In this document: one piece after another, positions 21,580 to 41,155 of the stretch
Position numbering within the stretch: position 1 is the stretch's first letter
How the letters are laid out: each line of letters opens with the position of its first letter
NCBI GenBank assembly: GCA_017466375.1
Contig: JAFTUH010000010.1
Coordinates: forward strand, 1-41,155
Length of the DNA: 41,155 nt
Direction: 5' to 3'
From: Clostridia bacterium
GTDB taxonomy: Bacteria; Bacillota; Clostridia; Oscillospirales; CAG-272
Notes under the pieces: generated by a model
What the model was told of the DNA's origin: nothing
Databases searched by the model: none
Seen by the model: the letters and a program-made list of their open reading frames with translations, nothing else
Made by a program: the position numbers and the translations under genes

Positions 21580-21590
21580 ATGTACATAAA

Positions 21591-21866
21591 TGCGTTTGAA
21601 CAGGAATAAGTACGTTTGGACGGAGCCTTCAGAGAGTTGTCGGCAGGTGCGAGACAATAGGAAAGTCCGAACGGAATACCTCCTGCAAGCAGTGCACCGA
21701 ACAAAACGGACGTTTTCAGTAGGCTGCAACGGGCGTTCCCGTCACAGAACCGGAGTGTTGGCAGACACTCTCCAAGGCCGCGATCGTGAGAGAACGGCAA
21801 ACTGAGGTGGTACCACGGGTTTAACTCGTCCTCTGTATTCTATCGGAATACGGAGGACGTTTTTGT
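21591..21866 (+). promoter_or_regulatory. T-box riboswitch with apparent UAC (Tyr) specifier
   Basis: The T-box core AACTGAGGTGGTACCACGGG (about 21800-21819) is followed by the terminator GTCCTCTGTATTC / GAATACGGAGGAC (21829-21857) with a T run. Stem I has CAGGA (about 21601-21605) pairing with TCCTG (21681-21685) and GTTTGGAC pairing with GTCCGAAC above it. The 3' side of the internal loop between them is GGAATACC, so the specifier is most simply TAC at 21677-21679 (tyrosine). Loop E-type AGTA and AGAGAG/GGTGCGAG distal-loop motifs are present. Uncharged tRNA-Tyr would stabilise the antiterminator and switch on the downstream transporter. Confidence 0.93.
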
Positions 21867-21899: not shown

Positions 21900-23441
21900 A
21901 TGACAGACGCACAACTCTACACCATTATTGCGCTTTGCGTGTACGCAGGGACATTGGCACTCATCGGCTGCATCAGCAGCGGAAAGACAAAGACGCTTGA
22001 CGGATTCCTTATCGGAGGACGGAATATCGGCGCGTGGGTGACCGCGTTTGCATACGGTACGACGTATTTTTCCGCCGTCGTGTTCGTAGGCTATGCCGGT
22101 CAGCACGGCTGGAATATCGGTCTCGGCGCGATCTGGATTGGTATCGGCAACGCCGTTTTGGGCTGTCTGCTTTCGTGGATTCTGTTTGCAAACCGTACCA
22201 GAAAAATGACCAAAAAGCTGCAGGCGAAAACAATGTCCGAGTATTTCGAGAAGAGATATAATTCGACGGGCATGAAAATTATGGCGGCGATCATCATTTT
22301 CGTGTTCCTTGTTCCGTATTCTGCGGCAGTGTATAAGGGACTCGGCTCGCTGTTCAGCGCAGTCTTCCCCGGCGTGGAAACGTGGGTATGGATGCTCATC
22401 ATTGCCTGCCTGACCGCGATCTATCTGGTCATTGGCGGTTATGTTGCAACCGTGTATTCGGATCTTGTGCAGGGCATTGTCATGCTCGTCGGCGTCGTTT
22501 GCCTGGTAGCGGCGGTGCTCTCGCATGAAAATGTCGGCGGTCTTGGCGGTCTCATCGAGAATCTCGGCAAGGTTGTCGAATCTGACGGCACATCGCTCGG
22601 AGAGCAGCTTACCAGCATTTTCGGCGGCTCCTCTTTCAGCTTCCTCTGCTTCAATATTATGCTTACCAGCTTCGGTACGTGGGGACTTCCGCAGATGATC
22701 GGCAAGTTCTACGCGATCAAAGATACCGCGGCAATCAAACGCGGTACGGTCATCTCCACGATTTTCTGTGCCGTGATCGGCTGCGGCGCGTATCTCATCG
22801 GCTCCACGTCCCGTCTGATCCTTGAGAATCAGCTCCCCGCAGGCGGCGTTGACTCCATTATCCCCGAGCTTCTGCTGAAAGTGCTCGGCGGCGGCACGGC
22901 AGGTCTGATTCTGCTTGCGGTCATTATGATCCTGCTTTTGTCCGCGTCGATGTCTACGCTCTCCTCTGTCGTTCTTACCTCCGCATCCGCGGTGGCAGTC
23001 GATTTGATTCCTACCATCCGAAAGAAGCAGATGAAGCCCGAGTCGCAGATGCTTCTCACCAGACTTCTGTGCCTCGCGTTCGTTGCCTGCTCGTTCATTT
23101 TCGCCACGCAGAATATTCCGATTATCGTAAGTCTGATGTCGTTCTCGTGGGGCGTCGTTTCCGGCTGCTTCATCGGTCCGTACATTTGGGGTCTGTTCTC
23201 CAAAAAGATCACGAAAATCGGTGCGTATGCCGGTATGATTGCCGGTTTCCTCACCGTTGGCGGTGCAACGCTTGTAATCACGCTGACGGACAGCTTCAAG
23301 GCTGCCGCGGCGCACTCTCCCGAGATGGGCGTTGCCGCTATGGCGATCTCCCTGATCGTCGTGCCCGTCGTGAGCGCGCTCACCAAAAACAAGGACAAGG
23401 AAAGAGTAGACGAGATCTTCTCGTGCTATTCCGAAGAATAA
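21900..23441 (+). CDS. Sodium:solute symporter (SSS family), T-box controlled
   Basis: 513 residues, ATG 21900 behind AGGAGGAAAACTC. About 13 transmembrane helices of the SSS fold: helix 2 FLIGGRNIGAWVTAFAYGTTY, helix 3 FVGYAGQHGWNIGLGAIWIG, IYLVIGGYVATVYSDLVQG, FGTWGLPQMIGKFYAI, and the Na+-site Ser residues in ILLLSASMSTLSSVVLTSAS. It is a diverged paralogue of the PutP-like protein at 17842-19407. Control by a T-box whose specifier reads UAC argues for import of tyrosine or an aromatic amino acid/precursor. Regulation is read from sequence; the substrate is inferred from it. Confidence 0.9.
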   Translation: MTDAQLYTIIALCVYAGTLALIGCISSGKTKTLDGFLIGGRNIGAWVTAFAYGTTYFSAVVFVGYAGQHGWNIGLGAIWIGIGNAVLGCLLSWILFANRTRKMTKKLQAKTMSEYFEKRYNSTGMKIMAAIIIFVFLVPYSAAVYKGLGSLFSAVFPGVETWVWMLIIACLTAIYLVIGGYVATVYSDLVQGIVMLVGVVCLVAAVLSHENVGGLGGLIENLGKVVESDGTSLGEQLTSIFGGSSFSFLCFNIMLTSFGTWGLPQMIGKFYAIKDTAAIKRGTVISTIFCAVIGCGAYLIGSTSRLILENQLPAGGVDSIIPELLLKVLGGGTAGLILLAVIMILLLSASMSTLSSVVLTSASAVAVDLIPTIRKKQMKPESQMLLTRLLCLAFVACSFIFATQNIPIIVSLMSFSWGVVSGCFIGPYIWGLFSKKITKIGAYAGMIAGFLTVGGATLVITLTDSFKAAAAHSPEMGVAAMAISLIVVPVVSALTKNKDKERVDEIFSCYSEE

Positions 23442-27510: not shown

Positions 27511-28830
27511 ATGGCGTTCAGTCTTCGCGGAATACACACTCCACATAGAAAAAACACGGTCAAAAAACCAACCGTTCGTATGGACGCGCCGGCGTCTGTA
27601 ACGGTGCCGATGTCGATGCATATCGGAGTACCTGCCACGCCCACGGTGAAGGTCGGGGATCTTGTTGCGGTGGGTACGAAAATCGGTGAGGCAAACGGAA
27701 AAATCTCGTCCAACGTGTATTCCGGCGTGTCCGGAAAGGTGACGAAGCTTACGGAATATCTGACGGCAGACGGCACCTCCTCGGTGGCTGTTGTGATTGA
27801 ATCCGACGGGCAGATGACGGCAGATCCTGCGGTTTGTCCGCCTGCCGTTACAAACAGGGAAGAGCTGATCTTAGCGCTCCGTGAAAGCGGTATCGTCGGA
27901 CTTGGCGGCGCCGGCTTTCCCACGCACGTCAAGCTGGACGTGGATCCGGCGCGAATAGAGTACCTCCTCATAAACGGCGCGGAATGTGAGCCGTACGTAA
28001 CGAGCGATACGGTAACGATGCTGACGCGGGCGGACGATATGGCGTATGCGCTCGGCGTGCTCGGACGCATTCTGGGGATTAAAAACGTCATTATCGGTAT
28101 TGAAAACAATAAAAAAGACGCCATCGCATCAATGAAAAAGATGGCAGAGACCGTGACCGACTGTACGGTGGCGGTGAAAGTGCTTCCGTCTGTGTATCCG
28201 CAGGGAGGGGAGAAGGTGCTGATCTATCATACCACCGGACGAAAGGTCGCTGTCGGAAAACTGCCGATCGACGTGGGCTGTGTCGTTTTGAACTGCACCA
28301 CGCTTGCGGCAATCGGTACATATCTGCGTACGGGTATGCCGCTCGTGGAGAAATGCGTGACGGTGGACGGCGGGGCGGTGAAGAATCCGCAAAACGTGAT
28401 TGTGCCGATCGGAACGGGAATAGAGGATTTGCTTACCTTCTGCGGCGGTCTGCGCGAGCAGCCTGCAAAAATTCTCTACGGCGGTCCCATGATGGGGATC
28501 ACGGTGCCGAGTACGGCGCACCCGATTCTCAAGAATACGAACGCTGTCCTCGCGTTGACGAAAAAAGAGGCAAAGCTTCCGAAGGCGACCGCGTGTATCC
28601 GCTGCGGCAGCTGTACGAACACCTGCCCGTTCGGGATTGCGCCCGCCTCGATCGCGATTGCATATGAAAAGAAAGATACGGCGGCACTGCAGGCGCTGCA
28701 CGTCATGAGCTGTATGGAGTGCGGATGCTGCAGCTTCGTCTGCCCCGCGAACCGACCGCTCGTTCAGACGAACAGGCTCGCAAAGCAGCTTCTGAAGGAA
28801 GAAGCAAGGAAGGAGGCGGAGAAAGCATGA
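27511..28830 (+). CDS. rnfC: Rnf complex subunit RnfC (NADH-interacting iron-sulfur subunit)
   Basis: 439 residues from ATG 27511 (AAAGG nine bases upstream); ATG 27505 two codons earlier is possible. The protein opens AFSLRGIHTPHRK, the usual RnfC start. Landmarks are the Rossmann-like VGLGGAGFPTHVKL (Gly-rich), INGAECEPYVTSD, the SLBB-like part, and two 4Fe-4S motifs CIRCGSCTNTCPFG and CMECGCCSFVCPAN with following Pro residues. RnfC carries FMN and exchanges electrons with NAD(H) in the membrane Rnf complex, which couples ferredoxin oxidation to Na+ or H+ export. First gene of rnfCDGEAB, overlapping rnfD by ATGA. Confidence 0.96.
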   Translation: MAFSLRGIHTPHRKNTVKKPTVRMDAPASVTVPMSMHIGVPATPTVKVGDLVAVGTKIGEANGKISSNVYSGVSGKVTKLTEYLTADGTSSVAVVIESDGQMTADPAVCPPAVTNREELILALRESGIVGLGGAGFPTHVKLDVDPARIEYLLINGAECEPYVTSDTVTMLTRADDMAYALGVLGRILGIKNVIIGIENNKKDAIASMKKMAETVTDCTVAVKVLPSVYPQGGEKVLIYHTTGRKVAVGKLPIDVGCVVLNCTTLAAIGTYLRTGMPLVEKCVTVDGGAVKNPQNVIVPIGTGIEDLLTFCGGLREQPAKILYGGPMMGITVPSTAHPILKNTNAVLALTKKEAKLPKATACIRCGSCTNTCPFGIAPASIAIAYEKKDTAALQALHVMSCMECGCCSFVCPANRPLVQTNRLAKQLLKEEARKEAEKA

Positions 28831-29747
28831 GCGCACTTACGAAAATAACGGTGTCTCCCCATATCCACAGCGGGCGCTCCACGGCGGGCATCATGCGGGA
28901 TGTTCTGATTGCGCTTTTGCCCGCGACGGTAGCCGGGATCGTCATCTTCGGTCTCAGGGCACTTCTTCCCATTGCGGTTTGCGTGGTGTGCTGTGTCGGC
29001 TTTGAAGCGCTCTTTAACCTGATTGTGAAAAAAGAGCAGACGGTGGGCGATTTGTCGGCGGCGGTTACCGGTCTTCTGCTTGCCCTGAATCTGCCGGCGA
29101 ATATCCCCGTCTGGCAGTGTGTGATCGGGTCTTTGTTTGCGATTATCGTTGTCAAATGCCTGTTTGGCGGTATAGGCAATAATCTGGTCAACCCCGCAAT
29201 CACGGCACGCGTGTTTATGCTGGTGGCGTTTGAATCGATGGCGGTTGCCGCTTTCCCGACAGATACGGTGGCAAGCGCGACTGTTCTTTCCATGGAGAAG
29301 GCACCGTCTCTGCTCACGCTGTTCTTTGGAAATTACGGCGGCGCAATCGGTGAGACGTGTACGGCGGCACTGCTTCTCGGCGGGATCTATCTGCTGGCGC
29401 GCCGTGTGATTACGTGGCATATTCCGACGGTGTTTATCGGTACGGTGTTCGTTTTCTCGTGGCTGATGGAGGGATTTGACGCCGTCTCCGCGCTTTCTTA
29501 TGTGATGGCGGGCGGCTTGTTCCTCGGTGCGATCTTTATGGCGACCGATTACGTTACTTCGCCGTCCACCTCGTGGGGCAAGGTGATCTTTGCGCTCGGT
29601 GCGGGAGTCATCACCTGCCTGATCCGCTATTTCGGTGTCTACCCCGAAGGCGTCTCCTTTGCGATTCTGTTTATGAATATTCTGACTCCGTATATTGATT
29701 CGTGGACAAGGCACAAAGTGTTTGCTACGGGAGGGGAACGCGTATGA
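28827..29747 (+). CDS. rnfD: Rnf complex subunit RnfD (flavinylated membrane subunit)
   Basis: 306 residues, ATG 28827 overlapping the rnfC stop, AGGAGG upstream. About nine transmembrane helices. SPHIHSGRSTAGIMRDVLIA is the typical N terminus. DTVASATVL (about residues 146-154) holds Thr152, the likely threonine for covalent FMN attachment by ApbE. MATDYVTSPST near residue 240 is the RnfD/NqrB family signature. RnfD passes electrons across the membrane to RnfG. ApbE, needed for the modification, is encoded at 35101-36153. Confidence 0.95.
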   Translation: MSALTKITVSPHIHSGRSTAGIMRDVLIALLPATVAGIVIFGLRALLPIAVCVVCCVGFEALFNLIVKKEQTVGDLSAAVTGLLLALNLPANIPVWQCVIGSLFAIIVVKCLFGGIGNNLVNPAITARVFMLVAFESMAVAAFPTDTVASATVLSMEKAPSLLTLFFGNYGGAIGETCTAALLLGGIYLLARRVITWHIPTVFIGTVFVFSWLMEGFDAVSALSYVMAGGLFLGAIFMATDYVTSPSTSWGKVIFALGAGVITCLIRYFGVYPEGVSFAILFMNILTPYIDSWTRHKVFATGGERV

Positions 29748-30919
29748 AAACGGGCATCAAAAATCTTTCCGTGTTCGTTTGCATCTGCACGGTGATTACC
29801 TTACTTCTCGCGCTTACCAACGCGTTTACGGCACCGCTGATTCTGAAAAATCAGAACGCCTCCGCCAATCAGGCACTGCTTGAGGTGATGCCCGACGGGG
29901 AAGGCTTTGAGGCGGTTTCTCTGGAATCCTATACGCTTCCCGCCACGGTGAAAGAGGTGTATAGGGAAACATCCGGTCAGGGATACGTTGTGAAGCTCGT
30001 CACTACCGGCTACGGCAGTGATATGACGATTATGTGCGGTGTGGACGCGAAAGGCGTCGTGACCGGTGCCGTCTGCATCTCATCCAATGAAACGCTCGGC
30101 AAGGAAAAGACCTACGGTGAGAATTTCACCGACAAGGACGCTGCCGGCGTGGAAGCGGTGGACGTCATCGGCGGTGCTACGAAAACGACAGCCGCTTATA
30201 AAAACGCAGTCAAGGATGCGCTGAATACGGCGATCATTCTCGGCGGCGGCTCTGTGGACATCCGTACCGAGGAGGAGATCCTTTCGGACAATCTGTCGGC
30301 GGCTCTGCCGGAGGGGGATGCTGCGTTTGACAAGCTGTTCCTCGTCGAAGTGATCGAATGCGCGGATGCCGTATATGCCGCTGAAAACGGAGCCGGATAC
30401 GTCTTCGTGCGCGGTGAGCAGTTCATCGGCGTGCGTCCGGACGGTACGCTCGTCACGGATGGCGCGGAGGATGCAGAGGCGATTGCGGCTGCTGTCGCAC
30501 GGCTGCAGTCCGTCACGCTGCAGGATATCGATCTCTCCGCGTACCCCGATCTGCAGAAAACGGTTCTTTCCGCGCAGATGACGTCCTCGGGCAACTATAT
30601 TGTGGAGACGAAGGGTGCCGGCTACGGTATCAAGGGCGGTAACGAGTATCACCCCGCTTCCGGCGAATATATCGTCGTGCGTGTGGCCATGACGCCCGAC
30701 GGAAGAATCATCGACTGTCTCACCGTTTCCGAGGGGGAGACGGACGGGCTTGGCGACGCCTGTGCACAGGAGAGCTTCTACGGTCAGTTCATCGGCAAAA
30801 CGGAGGAGAATTATACCGAAATCGATGCAATCAGCGGTGCGACCCTGACGACGGACGGCTATAAACAGGCAATACAGCGTGCCTTCGCGGCTGTGGAAAT
30901 TCTGAAAGGAGGAGAATAA
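29744..30919 (+). CDS. rnfG: RnfG with two FMN-binding domains (unusually long)
   Basis: 391 residues, ATG 29744 overlapping the rnfD stop; GGGAGGGG upstream. One N-terminal membrane helix (about 8-30), then an extracytoplasmic part. RnfG is normally about 200 residues with one FMN_bind domain. Here there are two: domain 1 (about 65-165) ends in DVIGGATKTT (143-149 region) and domain 2 (about 275-385) in DAISGATLTT (364-370). The second has the exact Ser-Gly-Ala-Thr-x-Thr flavinylation motif; the first has Gly for Ser but keeps the Thr. A third, partial copy may lie at about 205-240 (NGAGYVFVRGEQFIGVRPDG). The protein transfers electrons through covalent FMN on the outer face. Confidence 0.93.
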   Translation: MKTGIKNLSVFVCICTVITLLLALTNAFTAPLILKNQNASANQALLEVMPDGEGFEAVSLESYTLPATVKEVYRETSGQGYVVKLVTTGYGSDMTIMCGVDAKGVVTGAVCISSNETLGKEKTYGENFTDKDAAGVEAVDVIGGATKTTAAYKNAVKDALNTAIILGGGSVDIRTEEEILSDNLSAALPEGDAAFDKLFLVEVIECADAVYAAENGAGYVFVRGEQFIGVRPDGTLVTDGAEDAEAIAAAVARLQSVTLQDIDLSAYPDLQKTVLSAQMTSSGNYIVETKGAGYGIKGGNEYHPASGEYIVVRVAMTPDGRIIDCLTVSEGETDGLGDACAQESFYGQFIGKTEENYTEIDAISGATLTTDGYKQAIQRAFAAVEILKGGE

Positions 30920-30922
30920 ACG

Positions 30923-31612
30923 ATGAGCAAAACGAAGTCTCTTTCCGTTTTTACAAACGGTATTCTAAAAGAAAATCCCGTGCTTGTGCTCATTCTCGGC
31001 ACATGCCCGACGCTGGCGACGACGACTACGGTTACGGGTGCTTTGGGCATGGGACTGGCGGCGCTGGTCGTGCTGCTTTGCTCCAACGTGTTTATCTCCC
31101 TGCTTCGGAAAATCATCCCCGAAACGATGCGTATTCCTTGCTATATCGTGATTATTGCGGGCTTTGTTACGATCGTAAAAATGCTGGTGCAGGCACTGTT
31201 CCCCGGGCTTTACGAAACGCTCGGCGTGTATCTCGATCTGATTACGGTAAACTGCATTATCCTTGGTCGGGCGGAGATGTTTGCGGGTAAGAATCCCGTT
31301 CTCGCCTCGGCTTTGGACGGTATCGGCATGGGCATCGGTTTCACGGTCGCGCTCGGTGCGATGGCGACGATTCGCGAGGTGTTTGGTGCAGCATCCTTTG
31401 CAGGCATCGCGATTCCCTTTATGGAGAAATACAAAATTGCCTTTTTGACGAAGGCACCGGGCGGTCTGCTCGTCTACGGTCTTCTGATTGCGCTGGTGTA
31501 CGTGATTACAAAGGGCAAGGCGCCCGTGCGGACGTCGTTTTCCTGCGAGCGCTGCCCGAATGCGGATAAGTGCCAGATTGAAAACTGCACAAAGAAGGAG
31601 GCTGCCGCGTGA
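30923..31612 (+). CDS. rnfE: Rnf complex subunit RnfE
   Basis: 229 residues, ATG 30923, AAAGGAGGAG upstream, 3 bp after rnfG. Six transmembrane helices with the RnfE signatures NPVLVLILGTCPTLATTTTV and LDLITVNCIILGRAEMFA. RnfE and RnfA face each other in the membrane and share a [2Fe-2S] cluster held by conserved Cys (CPTLA and NCIILG). Unusually, a hydrophilic C-terminal tail ends CERCPNADKCQIENC with four cysteines, which may bind an additional metal or cluster. The rest is ordinary. Confidence 0.95.
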   Translation: MSKTKSLSVFTNGILKENPVLVLILGTCPTLATTTTVTGALGMGLAALVVLLCSNVFISLLRKIIPETMRIPCYIVIIAGFVTIVKMLVQALFPGLYETLGVYLDLITVNCIILGRAEMFAGKNPVLASALDGIGMGIGFTVALGAMATIREVFGAASFAGIAIPFMEKYKIAFLTKAPGGLLVYGLLIALVYVITKGKAPVRTSFSCERCPNADKCQIENCTKKEAAA

Positions 31613-32211
31613 TGGAACAGTTCAAACTTCTTGTCGTGATTCTGCTGTCCGCTGTTTTTGTGGATAACTACGTCCTGTGCCGCTTTTTGGGAATCTGCCC
31701 GTTTCTGGGCGTATCCAAAAAGCTCGATCAGGCGGCGGGAATGGGTGTCGCCGTCTCCCTTGTCATGCTGCTCGCTACTGCGGTGACGTGGCCGATTCAG
31801 CGCTTCGTTCTCGACGCTTTGAATATGGGATATCTCCAGAATATCGTGTTTATTCTGATTATCGCCACGCTCGTACAGATTCTGGAGATGCTTCTGAAAA
31901 AGCTGTCGCCGGCACTGTATAAGGGGCTTGGCGTGTATCTGCCTCTGATCACGACCAACTGTGCGGTGCTCGGCGTTACGATCAACAATATCCTGGACGG
32001 ATATTCCTTCGTTGAATCGATGGTGAGCACACTCGGCTGCGGTCTCGGCTTCCTTCTGGCGATGGTGCTGTTCTCCGGTCTTCGTTCCCGTATTCATGAA
32101 TCGAAGATCCCGGCACCCTTCCGCGGACTTGCCGTTACCCTGATTGCCGCTTCCTTTGTGTCCCTTGCGTTCATGGGCTTTGCCGGTATCGTGGAAAATA
32201 TTTTCGGTTAA
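31612..32211 (+). CDS. rnfA: Rnf complex subunit RnfA
   Basis: 199 residues from ATG 31612, which overlaps the rnfE stop by one base; GTG 31609 directly before it is an equally well-placed start. AAGGAGG is at 31595-31601. Six transmembrane helices. Conserved NYVLCRFLGICPFLGVSK (Cys for the intramembrane [2Fe-2S] cluster) and LPLITTNCAVLGVTI, the inverted counterpart of RnfE. It takes part in the transmembrane electron step of Rnf. Confidence 0.96.
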   Translation: MEQFKLLVVILLSAVFVDNYVLCRFLGICPFLGVSKKLDQAAGMGVAVSLVMLLATAVTWPIQRFVLDALNMGYLQNIVFILIIATLVQILEMLLKKLSPALYKGLGVYLPLITTNCAVLGVTINNILDGYSFVESMVSTLGCGLGFLLAMVLFSGLRSRIHESKIPAPFRGLAVTLIAASFVSLAFMGFAGIVENIFG

Positions 32212-32223
32212 CGGGGGCTTATC

Positions 32224-33057
32224 ATGGATATTTTAATTGCATTTGTATTTATGCTTGCCGTCGCGCTTCTTGCGGGCGTTCTGCTGCTTGTATTCTCCCG
32301 CCTTTTCGCCGTGGAGAAGAATCCGATGGAGAAAGCGGTCAGAGAATGTCTTCCGGGCATCAACTGCGGTGCCTGCGGCTACAAGGGCTGTGACGATTAC
32401 GCCGCGGCGCTGGCAGAGGGCGGTGTAAAACCGAATCTGTGCGTGCCGGGTACGCAGAAGGTCGCCGATGAGATCAGTGATATACTCGGTATTGAGAAGG
32501 TGCAGGTGCAGGACGTCGTTGCGTTCGTGGCCTGCAACGGGCACTGTGAAGCAACGTCCGTTTTGGCGGAGTATGAAGGCGTGCAGACGTGCCGTGCCGC
32601 ATCTATGCTGTACGGCGGTCCGAATTCCTGCCGATACGGCTGTCTCGGCTTCGGAGACTGTGCGGCGGCTTGTCCGTCGAATGCGATCTGTATGGCGGAC
32701 GGAATTGCGCGGATTGACACAACCCGCTGTCTTGGCTGCGGTCTGTGCAGGGATACGTGCCCGAAGCAGATCATCACAATGCTGCCGCAGGAGGCTGCCG
32801 CCGCCGTGATCTGCAGCAACAGGCAAAGCGGTGCGCTTGCCCGCAAGGCCTGCAAAAACGCCTGTATCGGATGCAAAAAGTGCGAAAAGGCGTGTCCGGG
32901 CGGTGCGATCACCGTCAAGGATAATCTGGCGGTAATTGATTATACTAAATGTACGTATTGCGGACTTTGCGTAACCGTGTGTCCGACGGGATGCCTGAAG
33001 AAGGTGTATTTCCCGGATTTGCCGGAGGATTGCGATATCAAAACGCTTATTGAGTAA
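32224..33057 (+). CDS. rnfB: Rnf complex subunit RnfB (ferredoxin-accepting iron-sulfur subunit)
   Basis: 277 residues, ATG 32224, 12 bp after rnfA. One N-terminal membrane helix (about 3-28), then the four-Cys Fe-S domain CLPGINCGACGYKGC, and further Cys-rich ferredoxin motifs: CRYGCLGFGDCAAACP, CLGCGLCRDTCP, CIGCKKCEKACP and CTYCGLCVTVCPTGC. This is the clostridial RnfB plan with multiple 4Fe-4S clusters. It receives electrons from reduced ferredoxin on the cytoplasmic side. The next gene starts directly after its TAA. Confidence 0.96.
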   Translation: MDILIAFVFMLAVALLAGVLLLVFSRLFAVEKNPMEKAVRECLPGINCGACGYKGCDDYAAALAEGGVKPNLCVPGTQKVADEISDILGIEKVQVQDVVAFVACNGHCEATSVLAEYEGVQTCRAASMLYGGPNSCRYGCLGFGDCAAACPSNAICMADGIARIDTTRCLGCGLCRDTCPKQIITMLPQEAAAAVICSNRQSGALARKACKNACIGCKKCEKACPGGAITVKDNLAVIDYTKCTYCGLCVTVCPTGCLKKVYFPDLPEDCDIKTLIE

Positions 33058-33459
33058 ATGGAAAAACAGAAAAACATTCGCAGAGCGCCTTTGCGAAATG
33101 ACGTGATCCTTGTCGGTGTACTGCTCCTTTTGTGCGCCGTGGGGATACTGTATTTGTTCGTACTGCGCGAAAGCGGAAACGTAGTGAAGGTTACCGTGGA
33201 CGGGGAGTTGTACGGCGTTTATTCCTTGGCGGAGGACATTACGGAGGAGATTCGCAGCGGAGAGAACGGTTCTGCGATGAACCGGCTGATTATCCGTGAC
33301 GGGCGGGCGTATATGGAAACGGCGAGCTGCCCGGACGGGATTTGCGTCAGTCACCGCCCGATCTTCAGAAACGGCGAAAGTATCGTGTGTCTGCCGAATC
33401 GCGTCGTCGTGACGGTGTTTACCGATGACGCGGCGGACGCCCCCGATATCGTGGCATAG
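33058..33459 (+). CDS. NusG domain II-containing membrane protein (EetA-like)
   Basis: 133 residues. Its ATG follows the rnfB stop without a gap. One transmembrane helix (about 15-36) with the N terminus inside; the external part is a small beta domain of the NusG-II type: VVKVTVDGELYGVYSL, NRLIIRDGRAYMETASCPDGICV and CLPNRVVVTVF. The conserved CPDGIC pair and its His (SHRPI) look like a metal or thiol site. This family occurs in flavin-based electron-transfer loci, where I recall it as EetA, and near rnf genes. The molecular role is unknown. Confidence 0.88.
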   Translation: MEKQKNIRRAPLRNDVILVGVLLLLCAVGILYLFVLRESGNVVKVTVDGELYGVYSLAEDITEEIRSGENGSAMNRLIIRDGRAYMETASCPDGICVSHRPIFRNGESIVCLPNRVVVTVFTDDAADAPDIVA

Positions 33460-33470
33460 GAAGGGTCATT

Positions 33471-33974
33471 ATGAAGGATACATCCAAAAAGGTCGCCTTT
33501 CTGGGCCTGTGTACGGCGCTGGCTTTGATGCTTGCGTACGTGGAAGTGCTGATGCCGCCGCTGTTTCTGGCAGTTCCGGGAATCAAGATGGGGCTGCCCA
33601 ATATCGTCATTGTGTTCCTGCTTTATCGGCGGGGGGCACCTGCGGCGGTTTGTGTTTCCGTGATTCGGATTCTTCTGGTGAGTCTCCTTTTCGGAAACGT
33701 GATGGCTCTTTCGTACAGCCTTGCGGGTGCGGTGCTGAGCCTCGCCGTTATGATGGTTCTTCGCCGCCTGAGGATCTTTTCTCCGGTGGGCGTCAGCGTA
33801 GCCGGCGGCGTTATGCACAACGTCGGACAGATTCTGATGGCTATGCTGCTGCTTGATACGGCGGAGATCGCGTATTATCTGGTGGTGCTGACTGTCACGG
33901 GTACCGTTTCCGGAATCCTCGTCGGGCTTTGCGGTGCACTTCTCATTCGGAAAGTGCCGCGCAGTCTGTCCTGA
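33471..33974 (+). CDS. Gx transporter family membrane protein (heptaprenyl diphosphate synthase component I-like; EetB-like)
   Basis: 167 residues, ATG 33471, AGGAAGGG upstream. About five transmembrane helices: VAFLGLCTALALMLAYVEVLMP, LPNIVIVFLLYRRG, AVCVSVIRILLVSLLFGN, YSLAGAVLSLAVMMVL and GVSVAGGVMHNVGQILMA with a late TM pair. This is the Hpre_diP_synt_I/Gx family, an ECF-S-like membrane fold, not an enzyme. The annotated name is historical. The adjacent NusG-II gene and the family's presence in extracellular electron transfer loci suggest a part in electron or flavin handling. Confidence 0.88.
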   Translation: MKDTSKKVAFLGLCTALALMLAYVEVLMPPLFLAVPGIKMGLPNIVIVFLLYRRGAPAAVCVSVIRILLVSLLFGNVMALSYSLAGAVLSLAVMMVLRRLRIFSPVGVSVAGGVMHNVGQILMAMLLLDTAEIAYYLVVLTVTGTVSGILVGLCGALLIRKVPRSLS

Positions 33975-34006
33975 TGTCCGCGTACCGATGCCGACGGGAC
34001 GCGCTG

Positions 34007-34035
34007 TTGACAAATATATAGGCGTATGATACAAT
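34007..34035 (+). promoter_or_regulatory. Promoter of the lipoprotein-apbE unit
   Basis: TTGACA (34007-34012), 17-bp spacer, TACAAT (34030-34035), 40 bp before the start. It sits between the rnf operon and the lipoprotein gene, with no terminator seen after 33974. Confidence 0.85.
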
Positions 34036-34075
34036 AAATCAGCATGTTCAAAAATTAAATAATAGGAGATTTGTC

Positions 34076-35044
34076 ATGAAAAAGTTTTTTGCTTTGACCC
34101 TGTGCATTTTTCTGGTAATCCCCGCAATTTTGACCGGCTGCGGCGGTGCTGCCGCTGTTAAGTTCGGTGCCGGTGTATACGTAGGCGCGCCCACCGCCAC
34201 GGATGCAGCCGAGGACATGGATGGCTCCGGTAAGATCGACGTCACTGTCGCTGCCGTTACGGTTGACGCGGACGGTAAGATCGCCTCCTGTGCACTGGAT
34301 ACCGCAAGCAATACGGTAAAGTACACGGCAGACGGCAAGGCTGTCGCAGGCGAATTTGAGACCAAGTACGAGGCCGGCGCAGAGTATAACATGGTAGAGT
34401 ACGGCGGCGCATCCAAGGAATGGTATGAGCAGGCAGACGCGTTTGAGGCGCTGGTCGTCGGCAAGACGCTGCAGGAGGTCAAAGCACTCGTTGCGGAGGG
34501 AAACAAGGGTACGGATGAGGTAATCCATGCCGGCTGTACCATTATGATTCACGAGTTTGTCGGTGCGATCGAGAAGGCGTACAATGCGGCTTCCTCTGAA
34601 ATCGGCGCGGATGCCGTATTGAAGGTAAACGTCGCAACCGAGCAGACACTCGCGGATGCGACCGAGGAAAGGGAGGGCAGCAATAAGATCGCCGTTTACG
34701 TTTTCGCCGCCGCTGTCGGTACGGACGGAAAGATCGTTGCCGCATCGAGCGATTGCGTAGAGGTTTCCTTCACGTTTGATATGGCAGGTGCCGCTACGCT
34801 TGATACCGCGAAGGCTGTCGTATCGAAGAAAGAGCAGGGATCTGCTTACGGCATGGTAGCGTACGGTGGCGCTGCGAAGGAGTGGTTTGAACAGGCCGCT
34901 GCCTTTGATGCTGCCTGCATCGGTAAGACGGCTGCTGAGATCGCGGGCTTGAAGACGGAGGACGGCAAGGGCGTGAGTGATCTTCAGGCTGCCGGCTGTA
35001 CGATTGACGTCACCGGCCTTGTCAAGGCTGCTACCAAGCACTGA
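34076..35044 (+). CDS. Lipoprotein with internal duplication, in the Rnf/ApbE block
   Basis: 322 residues, ATG 34076, AGGAG upstream. Lipobox LTGC (Cys22). The mature part is two similar halves of about 140 residues: VDADGKIASCALD / VGTDGKIVAASSD, GAEYNMVEYGGASKEWYEQADAF / GSAYGMVAYGGAAKEWFEQAAAF, VGKTLQEVKAL / IGKTAAEIAGL, AGCTIMIHEFVGA / AGCTIDVTGLVKA. The DADGKI strand recalls FMN-binding-type folds, but no S-G-A-S/T-x-T flavinylation motif is seen in either half. It has its own promoter and may be cotranscribed with apbE by read-through. It could be a PplA-like extracellular electron carrier that binds flavin non-covalently, or a scaffold. Confidence 0.85.
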   Translation: MKKFFALTLCIFLVIPAILTGCGGAAAVKFGAGVYVGAPTATDAAEDMDGSGKIDVTVAAVTVDADGKIASCALDTASNTVKYTADGKAVAGEFETKYEAGAEYNMVEYGGASKEWYEQADAFEALVVGKTLQEVKALVAEGNKGTDEVIHAGCTIMIHEFVGAIEKAYNAASSEIGADAVLKVNVATEQTLADATEEREGSNKIAVYVFAAAVGTDGKIVAASSDCVEVSFTFDMAGAATLDTAKAVVSKKEQGSAYGMVAYGGAAKEWFEQAAAFDAACIGKTAAEIAGLKTEDGKGVSDLQAAGCTIDVTGLVKAATKH

Positions 35045-35065
35045 TCCACAAAATAAATACGAAGG

Positions 35066-35093
35066 CAAAAAAGGAGAGAACTCTCCTTTTTTG
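35066..35093 (+). terminator. Hairpin terminator between lipoprotein gene and apbE
   Basis: AAAAAAGGAGAG (35067-35078) / CTCTCCTTTTTT (35081-35092) with a 2-base apex. It ends 8 bases before the apbE start and contains the only GGAG near it. Confidence 0.85.
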
Positions 35094-35100
35094 TGATTAT

Positions 35101-36153
35101 ATGATGAAAAAACGAACGATCTGTACGGCACTTGCCGTTTGCATACTGCTGTGCTTTGGGCTTTCCTCCTGCACGGCACAGCCGCGGGGGAATCAGTATT
35201 CGGCGTATTCCATGGAGTATTTTGATACGGTGATTACCGTTGTCGGGTACGAGGATACAAAGGAAGAATTCGATGCAGTGGCGGAGGAGATTCTGTCCCA
35301 GTTTGCAGAGTACCACAGGCTGTACTCCATTTATCACCGGTTTGAAGGGATCGAGAATCTCTGTACCGTCAATGAAACGGTTGACGGCGCGCACCGGACA
35401 GTAACGGTGGATAGGCGTATTATCGATCTGCTTTTGTATGCCAAGGAGATGTACGCCGTGACCGACGGTACGGTAAATATTGCGATGGGCAGTGTTCTGT
35501 CGCTGTGGCATAATTACCGTGAGCTTGGTAAGGATAATCCTGCAGGAGCATCTCTGCCGCCGATGAATCGTTTGCGGGGGGCCGCCGGACATACGGATAT
35601 AAACGGTCTGATTATCGATGCGGAAAACAACACGGTAACGCTTGCGGATCCGCTTATGAAGCTGGACGTCGGTGCCATTGCCAAGGGCTACGCCGTGGAA
35701 TGCGTTGCCCGATCCTTGGAGGCGCGTGGGATTACGGGCTACGTGCTCAACGTCGGCGGCAACGTCCGTGCGGTGGGGAAAAAGCCGAACGGCACGCTGT
35801 GGACTGTCGGCATCGAGAACCCGATAGGTGAGGAGTACCTCGCGTATTTGCAGCTGGAGGACGAATCGGTGGTCACGAGTGGGTCGTATCAGCGGTATTA
35901 TTACGTGGATGGAAAGGCGTACCATCATATCATTCATCCGGATACGCTGATGCCCGCGGAGGGATTCATGTCCGTGTCCGTCATTTGTAAGGATTCGGGA
36001 TTCGGGGATGCAATGTCCACGGCACTCTTCTGCCTCACCCTGGAGGAGGGACTCGCATTGGTTGAATCCGTTTCAGATCTTGAAGCCATGTGGGTGGCGG
36101 AGGACGGAAGCAAAACTGTATCGAGCGGTTGGAATGCTTATGTGAAAAAATAA
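35101..36153 (+). CDS. apbE: FAD:protein FMN transferase, lipoprotein
   Basis: 350 residues, ATG 35101 (with a second ATG at 35104). Lipobox LSSC (Cys24), so it acts outside the membrane. ApbE landmarks: MEYFDTVITVVGYE at the N terminus, LDVGAIAKGYAVECVA, VLNVGGNVRAVGKK and SGSYQRYYYVDGKAYHHIIHPDTLMPA; the Asp residues in the C-terminal DAMSTALF coordinate Mg2+. The enzyme uses FAD to attach FMN to Thr in flavoproteins, here most likely RnfG and RnfD. The gene has no clear Shine-Dalgarno and follows a terminator-type hairpin by 8 bases. Confidence 0.95.
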   Translation: MMKKRTICTALAVCILLCFGLSSCTAQPRGNQYSAYSMEYFDTVITVVGYEDTKEEFDAVAEEILSQFAEYHRLYSIYHRFEGIENLCTVNETVDGAHRTVTVDRRIIDLLLYAKEMYAVTDGTVNIAMGSVLSLWHNYRELGKDNPAGASLPPMNRLRGAAGHTDINGLIIDAENNTVTLADPLMKLDVGAIAKGYAVECVARSLEARGITGYVLNVGGNVRAVGKKPNGTLWTVGIENPIGEEYLAYLQLEDESVVTSGSYQRYYYVDGKAYHHIIHPDTLMPAEGFMSVSVICKDSGFGDAMSTALFCLTLEEGLALVESVSDLEAMWVAEDGSKTVSSGWNAYVKK

Positions 36154-38683: not shown

Positions 38684-41155
38684 TCAGTTTTTCTTTTTCG
38701 GCGTTTCCGTCGATTGGGGTTCCGTCGGCTGCTTTTCCTTTTTCCTGTTCTTCCCGGCAATCCACGCACCGCCGCCGATGACTGCAGTACCGAAGAGCGC
38801 GGCGAGGAGGGCGATCAACCATCCCCAGCTGCCCTTGGACGGCTCTTCATCGGTTGTGGGATCCGTTTCGGAAGGCGTGGGATCGGTATCTGTGGGAGCT
38901 GTTGTGTCCTCGGGAATAGGATCCTTCGGCAGAATGTATCCGCACTCGTCGCAGCGGCCGTCCTCGTCGGCGTCGCTGTGATTGTCTTTGCCGCAGTCCT
39001 TGAAGACGGGCACAAGCTCCACGTTCCCTGTCAGCTTGTCGCCTTTCTTGACCGTTTCGCCGGTCGCTTTATCCACCCATCCGTCAAAGAGATTTCCCTC
39101 TTCTGCAGGCGGGAGCGTCGGCAGTGCGGGCACGGTCTGATCCTTGCCCTTCGTGAGCAGCTCCTTTACGGTGGGGGATGGCGTATCGGGTGTTCCCGTA
39201 TCGGGTGTATCTGTATCGGGCGTGGACGGCGCGGAAGGATTCTCGCCATCCGGATTCGGTGTGCTTTGTTCGGGGTCGCTTACGGGATAATTGGGAATCG
39301 TGATTACGAGCTTATCCTCCGGTACGCTGAGGATCGGAATCGCTTCGCTGAGGGTGTAGCCGCAGACTTTGCACACGCGCTGCTTTTCGCCCGGGAACGT
39401 ATAGCCGGGCTTCACCACGGTGTTCCATTCGCTGAACTTGTGGGAGGAACTTGCCTGCTTTTCGTGGCAGAGAGCGCATTCCTGCCAATGTTCATCTGCG
39501 CTGCTTTCGTATGCAAACGCGTGATGGAGCGGCGGGAGCACCATATCTGTCCAGGAGTGGCCGCAGGAGCAGGTGTGTGTCGTGTATCCGCCGGTTGTGC
39601 AGGTGGGCTTGGTGACGACGGCGGTGTATTCATGCGTATGGCTGCCGCTAAGCTTCGGGATCGTTTCTTCCTTCTCGTAGCCGCACTCGGTGCAGGATAC
39701 GGTCATGATACCCTCTTCCTTTTGGGTGGCTTCCTTGGTGACTGTACCGGCGCCGAAGCTATGTGCCCGGGCATTCAGACGGATACCGCATCCGTCTCCG
39801 CATACAGTCCAGTGCTCGGTGTCGTCGTATTCGGTTTCGGCATCCTCGCTGAGGCAGTGTTCGCCTTCGGGGCAGAAGTGGCGATCCCACTCGTCGCTTT
39901 CAACGCAGATTCCGTGCGTACAGCCGAAATCCTCGGAAACATCCGCACAGCAATCTGCGCACATCTTACAGTCGGGGCAGATGTCCGTGCAGTTTTCGCA
40001 AATCTCACATGCGGGGCAGACGTCCGCACAGTCGGTGCAGTATTCTCCGCACTCGTCGCAGATGTCCGTGCAGCTCGCGCAGTAATGGCAGTCTGCACAC
40101 ATGGCATCGGCACATTCAATACAGATGCCGCAGTCGGGACAGAATTCGTCGATACAGCCGGAGCATTTGCCGCAGTCCTCGCAAAGGCTCTCCGCGCAGT
40201 CCGTACAGACAATGCCGCAGTCCTCGCAGACTTCCGTGCAGTCGGCGCATTGGTAGCAGTCCTCGCAGAACATATCGTTCGCGCATTCACGGCAGATATC
40301 ACACGATGCACAGAACTCATCAAAGCAGTTCGAGCACTTCTCACCGCAGTCGGGGCAGAGATCCGCGCAGTTTTCGCATCCCTCGCCGCAGGGGCAGACG
40401 GTGCCGCAATCGCCGCAGAGTCCGCAGTTTATGCAGAAGTTTTCAGAGCCGGCACAGTCGATGCATTTGCCGCATTCCATACACAGCTCGCCGTCGGAGC
40501 AGTTGGAGCATTTTTCACAGCATTCCATACAGACGACGGCGCAGTTCGTGCATCCGCCGCCGCAGGAGCAAACCATCTCCACGCAGGTGATACAGAGCGC
40601 GCAATCCGAGCAGAAGTTATCCGCGCCCACACAGTCGATGCAGAAGCCGCAGTCTATGCAAATCTCACCGTCGGAGCAGTTGGAGCATTTCTCACCGCAA
40701 TCCGGGCAGACGACGGCGCAGTTGGAGCATCCCTCACCGCAGTAGCACAGCGTTTCCACACAGTCGATACAGAGAGCGCAGACTGTACAGAAGAATCCGT
40801 CTCCGCCGGCACAGTCGATACAGAGACCGCAATCCACGCAAATCTCGCCGTCTGCACAGTTTTCGCATTTCTCGTTGCACTCTGCACAGACGACGGCGCA
40901 GTTGGAGCATCCGTTTCCGCAGTAGCACAGCGTTTCCACACAGTCGATACAGAGACCGCATTCGGCGCAGTAGTCACCGCCTGCACAGTCAAAACAGCGT
41001 TCGCAATCCGCGCAGAGCTGATCGTCGGCGCAGTTTTCGCATTTCTCACCGCACTCGGAGCAGATAATGGCACAGTTAGAGCAACCGTTTCCGCAGTAGC
41101 ACAGCGTTTCCACACAGTCGATACAGAGACCGCATTCGGCGCAGTAGTCGCCGCC
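38684..41155 (-). CDS. Giant cysteine-rich repeat cell-surface protein (5' end outside window)
   Basis: The frame is open to the right window edge, giving at least 823 residues; GTG at 41111-41113 is internal to a repeat, not a start. Nucleotides 41155-39900 encode a Cys-rich region with CxxC pairs every few residues: each 58-60-residue unit has about 16 Cys (CYCGNGC, CSNC, CGEKC, CADC, CIDC). The units degenerate towards 39930. Then come repeats of the type TCTTGGYTTHTCSCGHSW and HEYTAVVTKPTCTTGG (39400-39700), a Thr/Pro/Asp linker, an InlB B-repeat-like segment (LFDGWVDKATGETVKKGDKL, about 39030-39180), a DADEDGRCDECGY motif, and one transmembrane helix (about 38757-38830) with a Lys-rich tail. 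So it is anchored outside the membrane. Function unknown: metal or iron-sulfur binding, redox buffering or a disulfide-hardened adhesin are all possible. Confidence 0.85.
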   Translation of the reverse strand, partial: GGDYCAECGLCIDCVETLCYCGNGCSNCAIICSECGEKCENCADDQLCADCERCFDCAGGDYCAECGLCIDCVETLCYCGNGCSNCAVVCAECNEKCENCADGEICVDCGLCIDCAGGDGFFCTVCALCIDCVETLCYCGEGCSNCAVVCPDCGEKCSNCSDGEICIDCGFCIDCVGADNFCSDCALCITCVEMVCSCGGGCTNCAVVCMECCEKCSNCSDGELCMECGKCIDCAGSENFCINCGLCGDCGTVCPCGEGCENCADLCPDCGEKCSNCFDEFCASCDICRECANDMFCEDCYQCADCTEVCEDCGIVCTDCAESLCEDCGKCSGCIDEFCPDCGICIECADAMCADCHYCASCTDICDECGEYCTDCADVCPACEICENCTDICPDCKMCADCCADVSEDFGCTHGICVESDEWDRHFCPEGEHCLSEDAETEYDDTEHWTVCGDGCGIRLNARAHSFGAGTVTKEATQKEEGIMTVSCTECGYEKEETIPKLSGSHTHEYTAVVTKPTCTTGGYTTHTCSCGHSWTDMVLPPLHHAFAYESSADEHWQECALCHEKQASSSHKFSEWNTVVKPGYTFPGEKQRVCKVCGYTLSEAIPILSVPEDKLVITIPNYPVSDPEQSTPNPDGENPSAPSTPDTDTPDTGTPDTPSPTVKELLTKGKDQTVPALPTLPPAEEGNLFDGWVDKATGETVKKGDKLTGNVELVPVFKDCGKDNHSDADEDGRCDECGYILPKDPIPEDTTAPTDTDPTPSETDPTTDEEPSKGSWGWLIALLAALFGTAVIGGGAWIAGKNRKKEKQPTEPQSTETPKKKN
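40406..41155 (-). repeat. Tandem 174-180 bp repeats encoding 58-60-residue Cys-rich units
   Basis: Units begin at a V-E-T/M codon group: 41113-40940 (58 codons), 40939-40760 (60), 40759-40583 (59), 40582-40406 (59), with part of one more at the edge (41114-41155). The sequence 40908-40981 recurs almost unchanged 174 bp further on at 41082-41155, and a shorter identical piece occurs at 40741-40780. Near-identity at DNA level points to recent expansion or gene conversion. Confidence 0.9.

Follow-up and report, generated by a model that had tools for sequence, protein, structure and literature searches.

Strict anaerobes are thought to avoid cysteine in their exported proteins, disulfides being hard to make there, and Cys-rich coats are already known in protists and on spores. 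CdeC and CdeM of the clostridial gut bacterium Clostridioides difficile are Cys-rich surface-layer proteins, which are not known to carry the CxxC repeat described below and belong to the exosporium, without membrane, SLH or dockerin anchors. In Giardia, a CXXC-rich VSP becomes trypsin-sensitive with chelators or reducing agents, an effect reversed by metal, and VSP protease resistance is described as dependent on metal and/or disulfides (PMC6341118). In Bacillus subtilis, YdjG, YdjH and YdjI are required to bring PspA to the membrane (PMC8581546), and TPM and band-7 proteins are proposed to act like assembly chaperones (PMC8581546, PMC11237479). The window analysed here is a stretch of 41,155 nucleotides, the entire contig JAFTUH010000010.1 (C1) of the 76-contig assembly GCA_017466375.1 of a Clostridia bacterium, and at its end lies the gene of a Cys-rich repeat protein. 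We propose, with moderate confidence, that this protein armours the envelope, is clamped by metal and works in connection with an SPFH/TPM module of the membrane.

The open frame at 38684-41155 on the minus strand has no start codon, reaches the contig end and closes with a stop at 38684. Alignment to the relative P0013 begins at residue 429 of the latter, and approximately 430 N-terminal residues are missing from the window protein. The contig breaks inside the tandem repeat, its final 115 nt matching 40867-40981 at 102 of 115 positions. The gene and its parts are as follows.

38684..41155, minus strand: Cys-rich surface protein gene; 823 codons present, 5' end beyond the contig end.
39947..41155, minus strand: region dense in Cys, spanning residues 1-403, with 114 Cys and 28 four-Cys modules (C-x1-2-C-x2-3-C-x2-C); modelled alone with AlphaFold2 at a mean pLDDT of 88.1.
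40433..41155, minus strand: tandem repeat of about four units of 174-177 bp, 16 Cys per unit, from repeat detection in the DNA.
39854..39946, minus strand: mixed Cys/His cap at the C-terminal side of the Cys region, in which His 414, 426 and 433 are invariant across all 36 rows of the alignment.
39281..39853, minus strand: domains of surface type containing both Cys and His, of which His 448, 465, 506, 508, 545, 556 and 572 are invariant in the same 36 rows.
39173..39280, minus strand: Thr/Pro/Asp-rich linker, residues 626-661, from sequence composition.
38756..38824, minus strand: predicted membrane helix, residues 778-800, a low-confidence stretch of the model.
38687..38755, minus strand: Lys-rich tail, predicted from the sequence to be cytoplasmic.

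Comparison with four relatives shows that this frame is a real gene, translated and conserved, since over the Cys region dN is low (0.18-0.21), dS ranges from 1.36 to saturated, and 113, 113, 114 and 113 of the 114 Cys codons are kept as Cys, 34, 44, 52 and 33 of them, respectively, through a synonymous change. Among the non-Cys residues of the region, 168-181 of 288-289 are identical between the window protein and these relatives. An 814-residue frame is also open on the opposite strand (window 38714-41155, plus strand), because reversed Cys codons yield no stops; it was rejected as a gene, all three antisense frames being interrupted by stops in the nine of nine relatives checked.

Cysteine accounts for 28% of residues 1-403, and the 68 CxxC motifs in this region exceed the mean of 31.8 and maximum of 46 obtained in 1000 shuffles. 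The modules follow each other at steps of 13-17 residues, Cys-to-Cys gaps are 2 or 3 in 89 of 113 cases, and the first four units, of 58, 60, 59 and 59 residues, have a period of four modules. The original prediction, made from the sequence alone, had placed a Cys-rich repeat protein at exactly these coordinates, with CxxC pairs at near-fixed spacing, about 16 Cys per unit, and C-terminal surface-type domains, membrane helix and Lys-rich tail, all of which are present. It had also recognised no known family in the repeats, and the Cys region finds no match in Pfam or NCBIfam, nor was a description of such a protein found in the literature searched. The model of the Cys region contains two 4-residue helices and no helix bundle, and in its first unit bridge residues occur at or just ahead of each CxxC, about every seven positions. 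Foldseek comparison of this model with the PDB yielded 21 weak matches, all of them zinc-finger proteins: 12 by title, two further MOZ entries and seven chains from APC/C and SEA/GATOR2 that we take to carry RING-type fingers. As nine of the 21 are MOZ/MORF, the matches are not independent. The RING, PHD, FYVE and LIM fingers share closely set CxxC knuckles with the Cys region, but are single or double, mostly intracellular domains with no significant match to it.

On this sequence evidence the Cys region is best read as a chain of zinc-finger-like metal knuckles, and the binding of many metal ions, also anticipated in the original prediction, is retained as the best explanation. Three observations point to metal: the invariant His that follow the Cys region, the restriction of the fold matches to zinc-finger proteins, and the lack of DSBA, DsbB or VKOR matches in eight of eight genomes (8, 6 and 3 of 14 controls were positive, respectively). 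Invariant and frequent His favours metal in that a disulfide would not need it.

A homologue search with the window protein found 306 proteins, the best 120 of which were examined. Among these, P0002-P0021 (20 rows) comprise 1117-1297 residues with 56-63% identity, P0022-P0026 are shorter pieces, and P0027-P0120 constitute an SLH-anchored type (PF00395 in 92 of 94 rows). Composition inflates the E-values between Cys-rich proteins; kinship is better judged by conserved module order and shared neighbours. In an alignment of 36 proteins, the 218 columns picked as at least 70% Cys contain 55 non-Cys cells out of 6524, and 18 of the 55 derive from the unrelated, odd N-terminus of P0018, possibly an assembly chimera. 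Beyond the ten invariant His listed above, His 726 is kept in at least 90% of aligned rows. Among 71 cousin proteins, 302 of 451 CPxC motifs directly follow a His, and one repeat pattern has His or Tyr at this position in 165 of 165. The Cys-knuckle stretch, approximately 400 residues in the window piece, extends over 658-775 residues in the full-length membrane-helix relatives measured, and up to 240 Cys per protein occur among the 26 relatives counted (P0002-P0027). The most Cys among the proteins counted, 315 with 170 CxxC, are found in a frame of 1385 residues ending in dockerin (L072 6491-10645, minus strand, genome G237).

The family is predicted to be extracytoplasmic, as the original prediction had it, on the basis of signal-like N-termini in full-length relatives and of surface anchors. 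A hydrophobic signal-like segment lies within the first 60 residues of 19 of the 20 long rows (P0002-P0021), as judged by eye, and a Lys/Arg cluster occurs within the last 25 residues of 23 of the 26 proteins P0002-P0027; the tail of the window protein is GKNRKKEKQPTEPQSTETPKKKN. Over 39281..39853, the family profile aligns with an IgA protease of solved structure, in its C-terminal part (9qa6, E 2.3e-12). A second search, from the cousin in G014, found 201 proteins, and among the best 120 of these many carry dockerin, some SLH and some other Pfam domains in precomputed Pfam lists, while P0131, one of the matches listed, bears repeats that are presumably choline-binding. By hmmscan, the proteins of G014 and G237 carry dockerin and that of L038 carries SLH. 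Across the wider family, the anchor is a membrane helix with Lys tail, SLH, dockerin or choline-binding repeats.

The family is conserved among gut Clostridia, with a patchy distribution. A close orthologue is encoded in only three of 96 other relatives (G001, G004 and G078), or in four of the 394 genomes of the order with the window's own genome included, while 60 of 97 relatives, own genome included, match at E <= 0.001, mostly via the C-terminal domains. A scan of named genomes identified 12 loci in metagenome-assembled genomes titled Oscillospiraceae or Clostridia bacterium; seven of the 12 titles refer to samples from the gut of deer, sheep, goat or water buffalo, and the other five records are SIG isolates whose titles give no host. 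G001 and L028 are not independent, and neither are G004 and L029.

The window contig ends too soon to show the upstream genes of its own Cys gene, and a search of the window's own genome gave no SPFH gene. The counts that follow leave out L035, which lacks upstream DNA, and use the other 11 named loci, with at least 1 kb upstream. Same-strand members of an SPFH/zinc-ribbon/TPM gene set are located upstream of the Cys gene in ten of the 11; L039 has no member of the set upstream. In L028, a secreted protein of more than 900 residues, a small membrane protein, DUF6935, a lipoprotein, an SPFH/Band-7 protein with zinc ribbons, DUF4428, a zinc-ribbon protein with a membrane segment, a TPM protein and the Cys protein are encoded in that order on one strand. 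Each locus has part of the set: the secreted protein is encoded in seven of the 11 loci, as are the small membrane protein and DUF6935, and the zinc-ribbon/membrane-segment and TPM proteins occur in four each. SPFH is encoded in five (L028, L029, L030, L032 and L038), a count that leaves out L031, where the short match is to the zinc-ribbon tail alone; the gene is cut by the end of the available DNA in L032 and L038 and lies downstream in L030 and L038. The three genes for SPFH with zinc ribbon, zinc ribbon with membrane segment, and TPM adjoin each other near the Cys gene in four of the 11 (L028, L029, L030 and L032) and, in L073, close to the cousin. In G014, the contig that encodes the distant cousin also has SPFH, zinc-ribbon and TPM genes, and the N-terminal half of the Cys gene in G078 (L076) adjoins DUF4428, DUF6935, membrane protein and secreted protein genes.

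The large secreted neighbour (L031 4025-6961, plus strand, and relatives) has a terminal hydrophobic helix, a Lys tail and CxxC/His repeats, with no Pfam match. A LuxR-type regulator match is located near the Cys gene in seven of 14 loci (L028-L039, L072 and L073), the assignment being checked with Pfam GerE in two of these. Matches to a membrane protein ending in a LuxR-type helix-turn-helix (HTH) occur in L031 (3-1637, minus strand), L034, L037 and L073 (12849-13931, plus strand), and in three of the seven loci the membrane/LuxR-type HTH match is next to a solute-binding protein. This membrane protein is a possible sensor for the cluster.

The neighbours in several relatives resemble the B. 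subtilis pspA-ydjGHI system in the SPFH protein with C-terminal zinc ribbons, the zinc-ribbon protein with a membrane segment and the TPM protein, and the layout given for ydjFGHL/ydjGHI in PMC11237479 and PMC8581546 matches these three core neighbours. A simple equation with ydjGHI is, however, opposed by two results. PspA (PF04012) was not found in eight of eight genomes, where nine of 14 control genomes were positive, and SPFH operons without an adjoining Cys-rich gene occur in L074 (G001 C136), L075 (G003 C14), L077 (G078 C84) and L079 (G180 C42), G001 having two full SPFH copies. The relatives further differ in the extra DUF6935, DUF4428, lipoprotein and large secreted protein, and in the Cys rod, which is itself not part of ydjGHI.

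The Giardia VSPs share with the window type of protein a CXXC-rich ectodomain, a single membrane helix near the C-terminus, a short tail and a gut habitat. They differ in that the proteins described here are bacterial, follow a strict four-Cys module grammar, carry SLH or dockerin anchors in relatives and have envelope-maintenance neighbours. The VSP profile (PF03302) matches neither the window protein, scanned against Pfam at E <= 1, nor its relatives, scanned at E <= 0.01, and the CRGKA motif of the VSP tail is not present in the tail of the window protein. The VSP coat is nonetheless the nearest working analogue, which leads to the proposal of a metal-clamped envelope armour. About one metal ion, probably zinc, would be clamped per four Cys, with each CxxC acting as a metal knuckle as in RING, PHD, FYVE and LIM fingers, to give a long rod outside the membrane. 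Going by module counts, the window piece would hold approximately 28 ions and full-length membrane-helix-type relatives approximately 43-51. The rod may resist proteolysis and armour the envelope, and may be made together with, and serve, the SPFH/zinc-ribbon/TPM membrane-maintenance module. A stronger form of this proposal is more tentative: the knuckles of neighbouring modules might share metal ions, making some 700 residues one continuous metal-stapled rod that is stiff only with metal, a metal-gated armour of anaerobes unable to make disulfides, which an SPFH/TPM module lacking PspA would deploy and which would have passed from one anchor type to another (membrane, S-layer, dockerin, choline-binding).

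A conserved, predicted-exported Cys-rich family breaks the Cys-avoidance rule of anaerobes and offers a direct test of whether their surface proteins are stabilised by metal instead of disulfides. If the metal-clamped armour proposal is true, the family would be a bacterial counterpart to the CXXC coats of protists and a gut sink for zinc, and might provide a scaffold that withstands proteases and a partner of SPFH/TPM envelope modules outside the cytoplasm. A continuous zinc-finger rod outside a bacterium would, if shown, be categorically new.

The rod could instead be an extracellular metal buffer or sponge, which mainly stores, scavenges or detoxifies soft metals such as zinc, with any structural role secondary. 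The capacity above, counted in ten full-length membrane-helix-type relatives besides the window piece, agrees with this function, as do the strongly acidic Cys region (pI 4.05) and the N-terminal His, of which 16 of the 20 proteins P0002-P0021 have at least five ahead of their first CxxC. A mere sponge would, however, not need the closely kept module count and spacing, and reading by eye revealed no metal transporter or regulator among the shared neighbours, apart from a presumed FeoB-like gene in L028; we regard a primary sponge role as rather unlikely. Csp, a cytosolic copper storage protein with a four-helix bundle fold, was rejected as an identity, the model having no helix bundle and the seven named Csp rows reaching no better than E 0.29-0.95 against the profile.

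Secreted Cys-rich proteins usually carry disulfide bonds, CdeC exemplifies the Cys-rich exosporium proteins of clostridia, and the whole 403-residue Cys region contains just one His, all of which would suit a coat protein stapled by extracellular disulfides into a tough rod without metal. The invariant His after the Cys region and the frequent His in the cousin repeats stand against such staples, as does the odd number of Cys in the dense region of six of the ten proteins counted. The eight genomes without DsbA, DsbB or VKOR matches weigh against them too, and likewise render the thiol/disulfide reservoir suggested in the original prediction less likely. We consider a disulfide-stapled coat unlikely.

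The original prediction had further suggested an electron-transfer role in view of an Rnf/flavin block about 2 kb away; a redox device, with Fe-S clusters or a thiol/disulfide relay carrying electrons along the surface, could possibly be fed by Rnf and flavoproteins.

28719-36153, plus strand: Rnf-like run of RnfB (Fer4/FeS domains), a NusG domain II protein, a repeated lipoprotein with no Pfam match, and ApbE.

Pfam confirms RnfB and ApbE alone, and the other Rnf-like genes are presumed from position. The block is indeed nearby; ApbE, the gene that closes it, stops at 36153, lies 2.5 kb from the Cys gene on the other strand and is separated from it by VWA- and macro-domain genes. The presence of Rnf candidates, an FMN-lipoprotein candidate and ApbE at 2.5-10 kb and the 33 occurrences of CxxCxxC are in line with a redox device. 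Seven window proteins (four Rnf candidates, the FMN-lipoprotein candidate, ApbE and the macro protein) have, however, no match at E <= 1e-6 in 20 relative loci with flanks of up to 10 kb. The ferredoxin-like CxxCxxCxxxCP is found just twice, and we know of no route for Fe-S cluster assembly outside the cell. A 4Fe-4S ferredoxin domain was rejected, as no Fer4 model matches the protein while the same library detects Fer4 in the window's RnfB, and so was a multihaem c-type cytochrome, only two of 72 CxxC being CxxCH. The electron-transfer role thus finds no support in the relatives, and a redox device appears very unlikely. A function in the spore coat or exosporium rather than in the growing cell envelope is the least probable of all, for although these bacteria probably sporulate, given SpoIVA in eight of eight genomes, spore coat proteins are made in the mother-cell cytoplasm, and the signal-like starts with SLH, dockerin, choline-binding or membrane-helix anchors indicate the vegetative envelope.

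Elsewhere in the window, a T-box leader (RF00230, 111 bits) is located at 21586-21836 on the plus strand, ahead of the frame at 21900.
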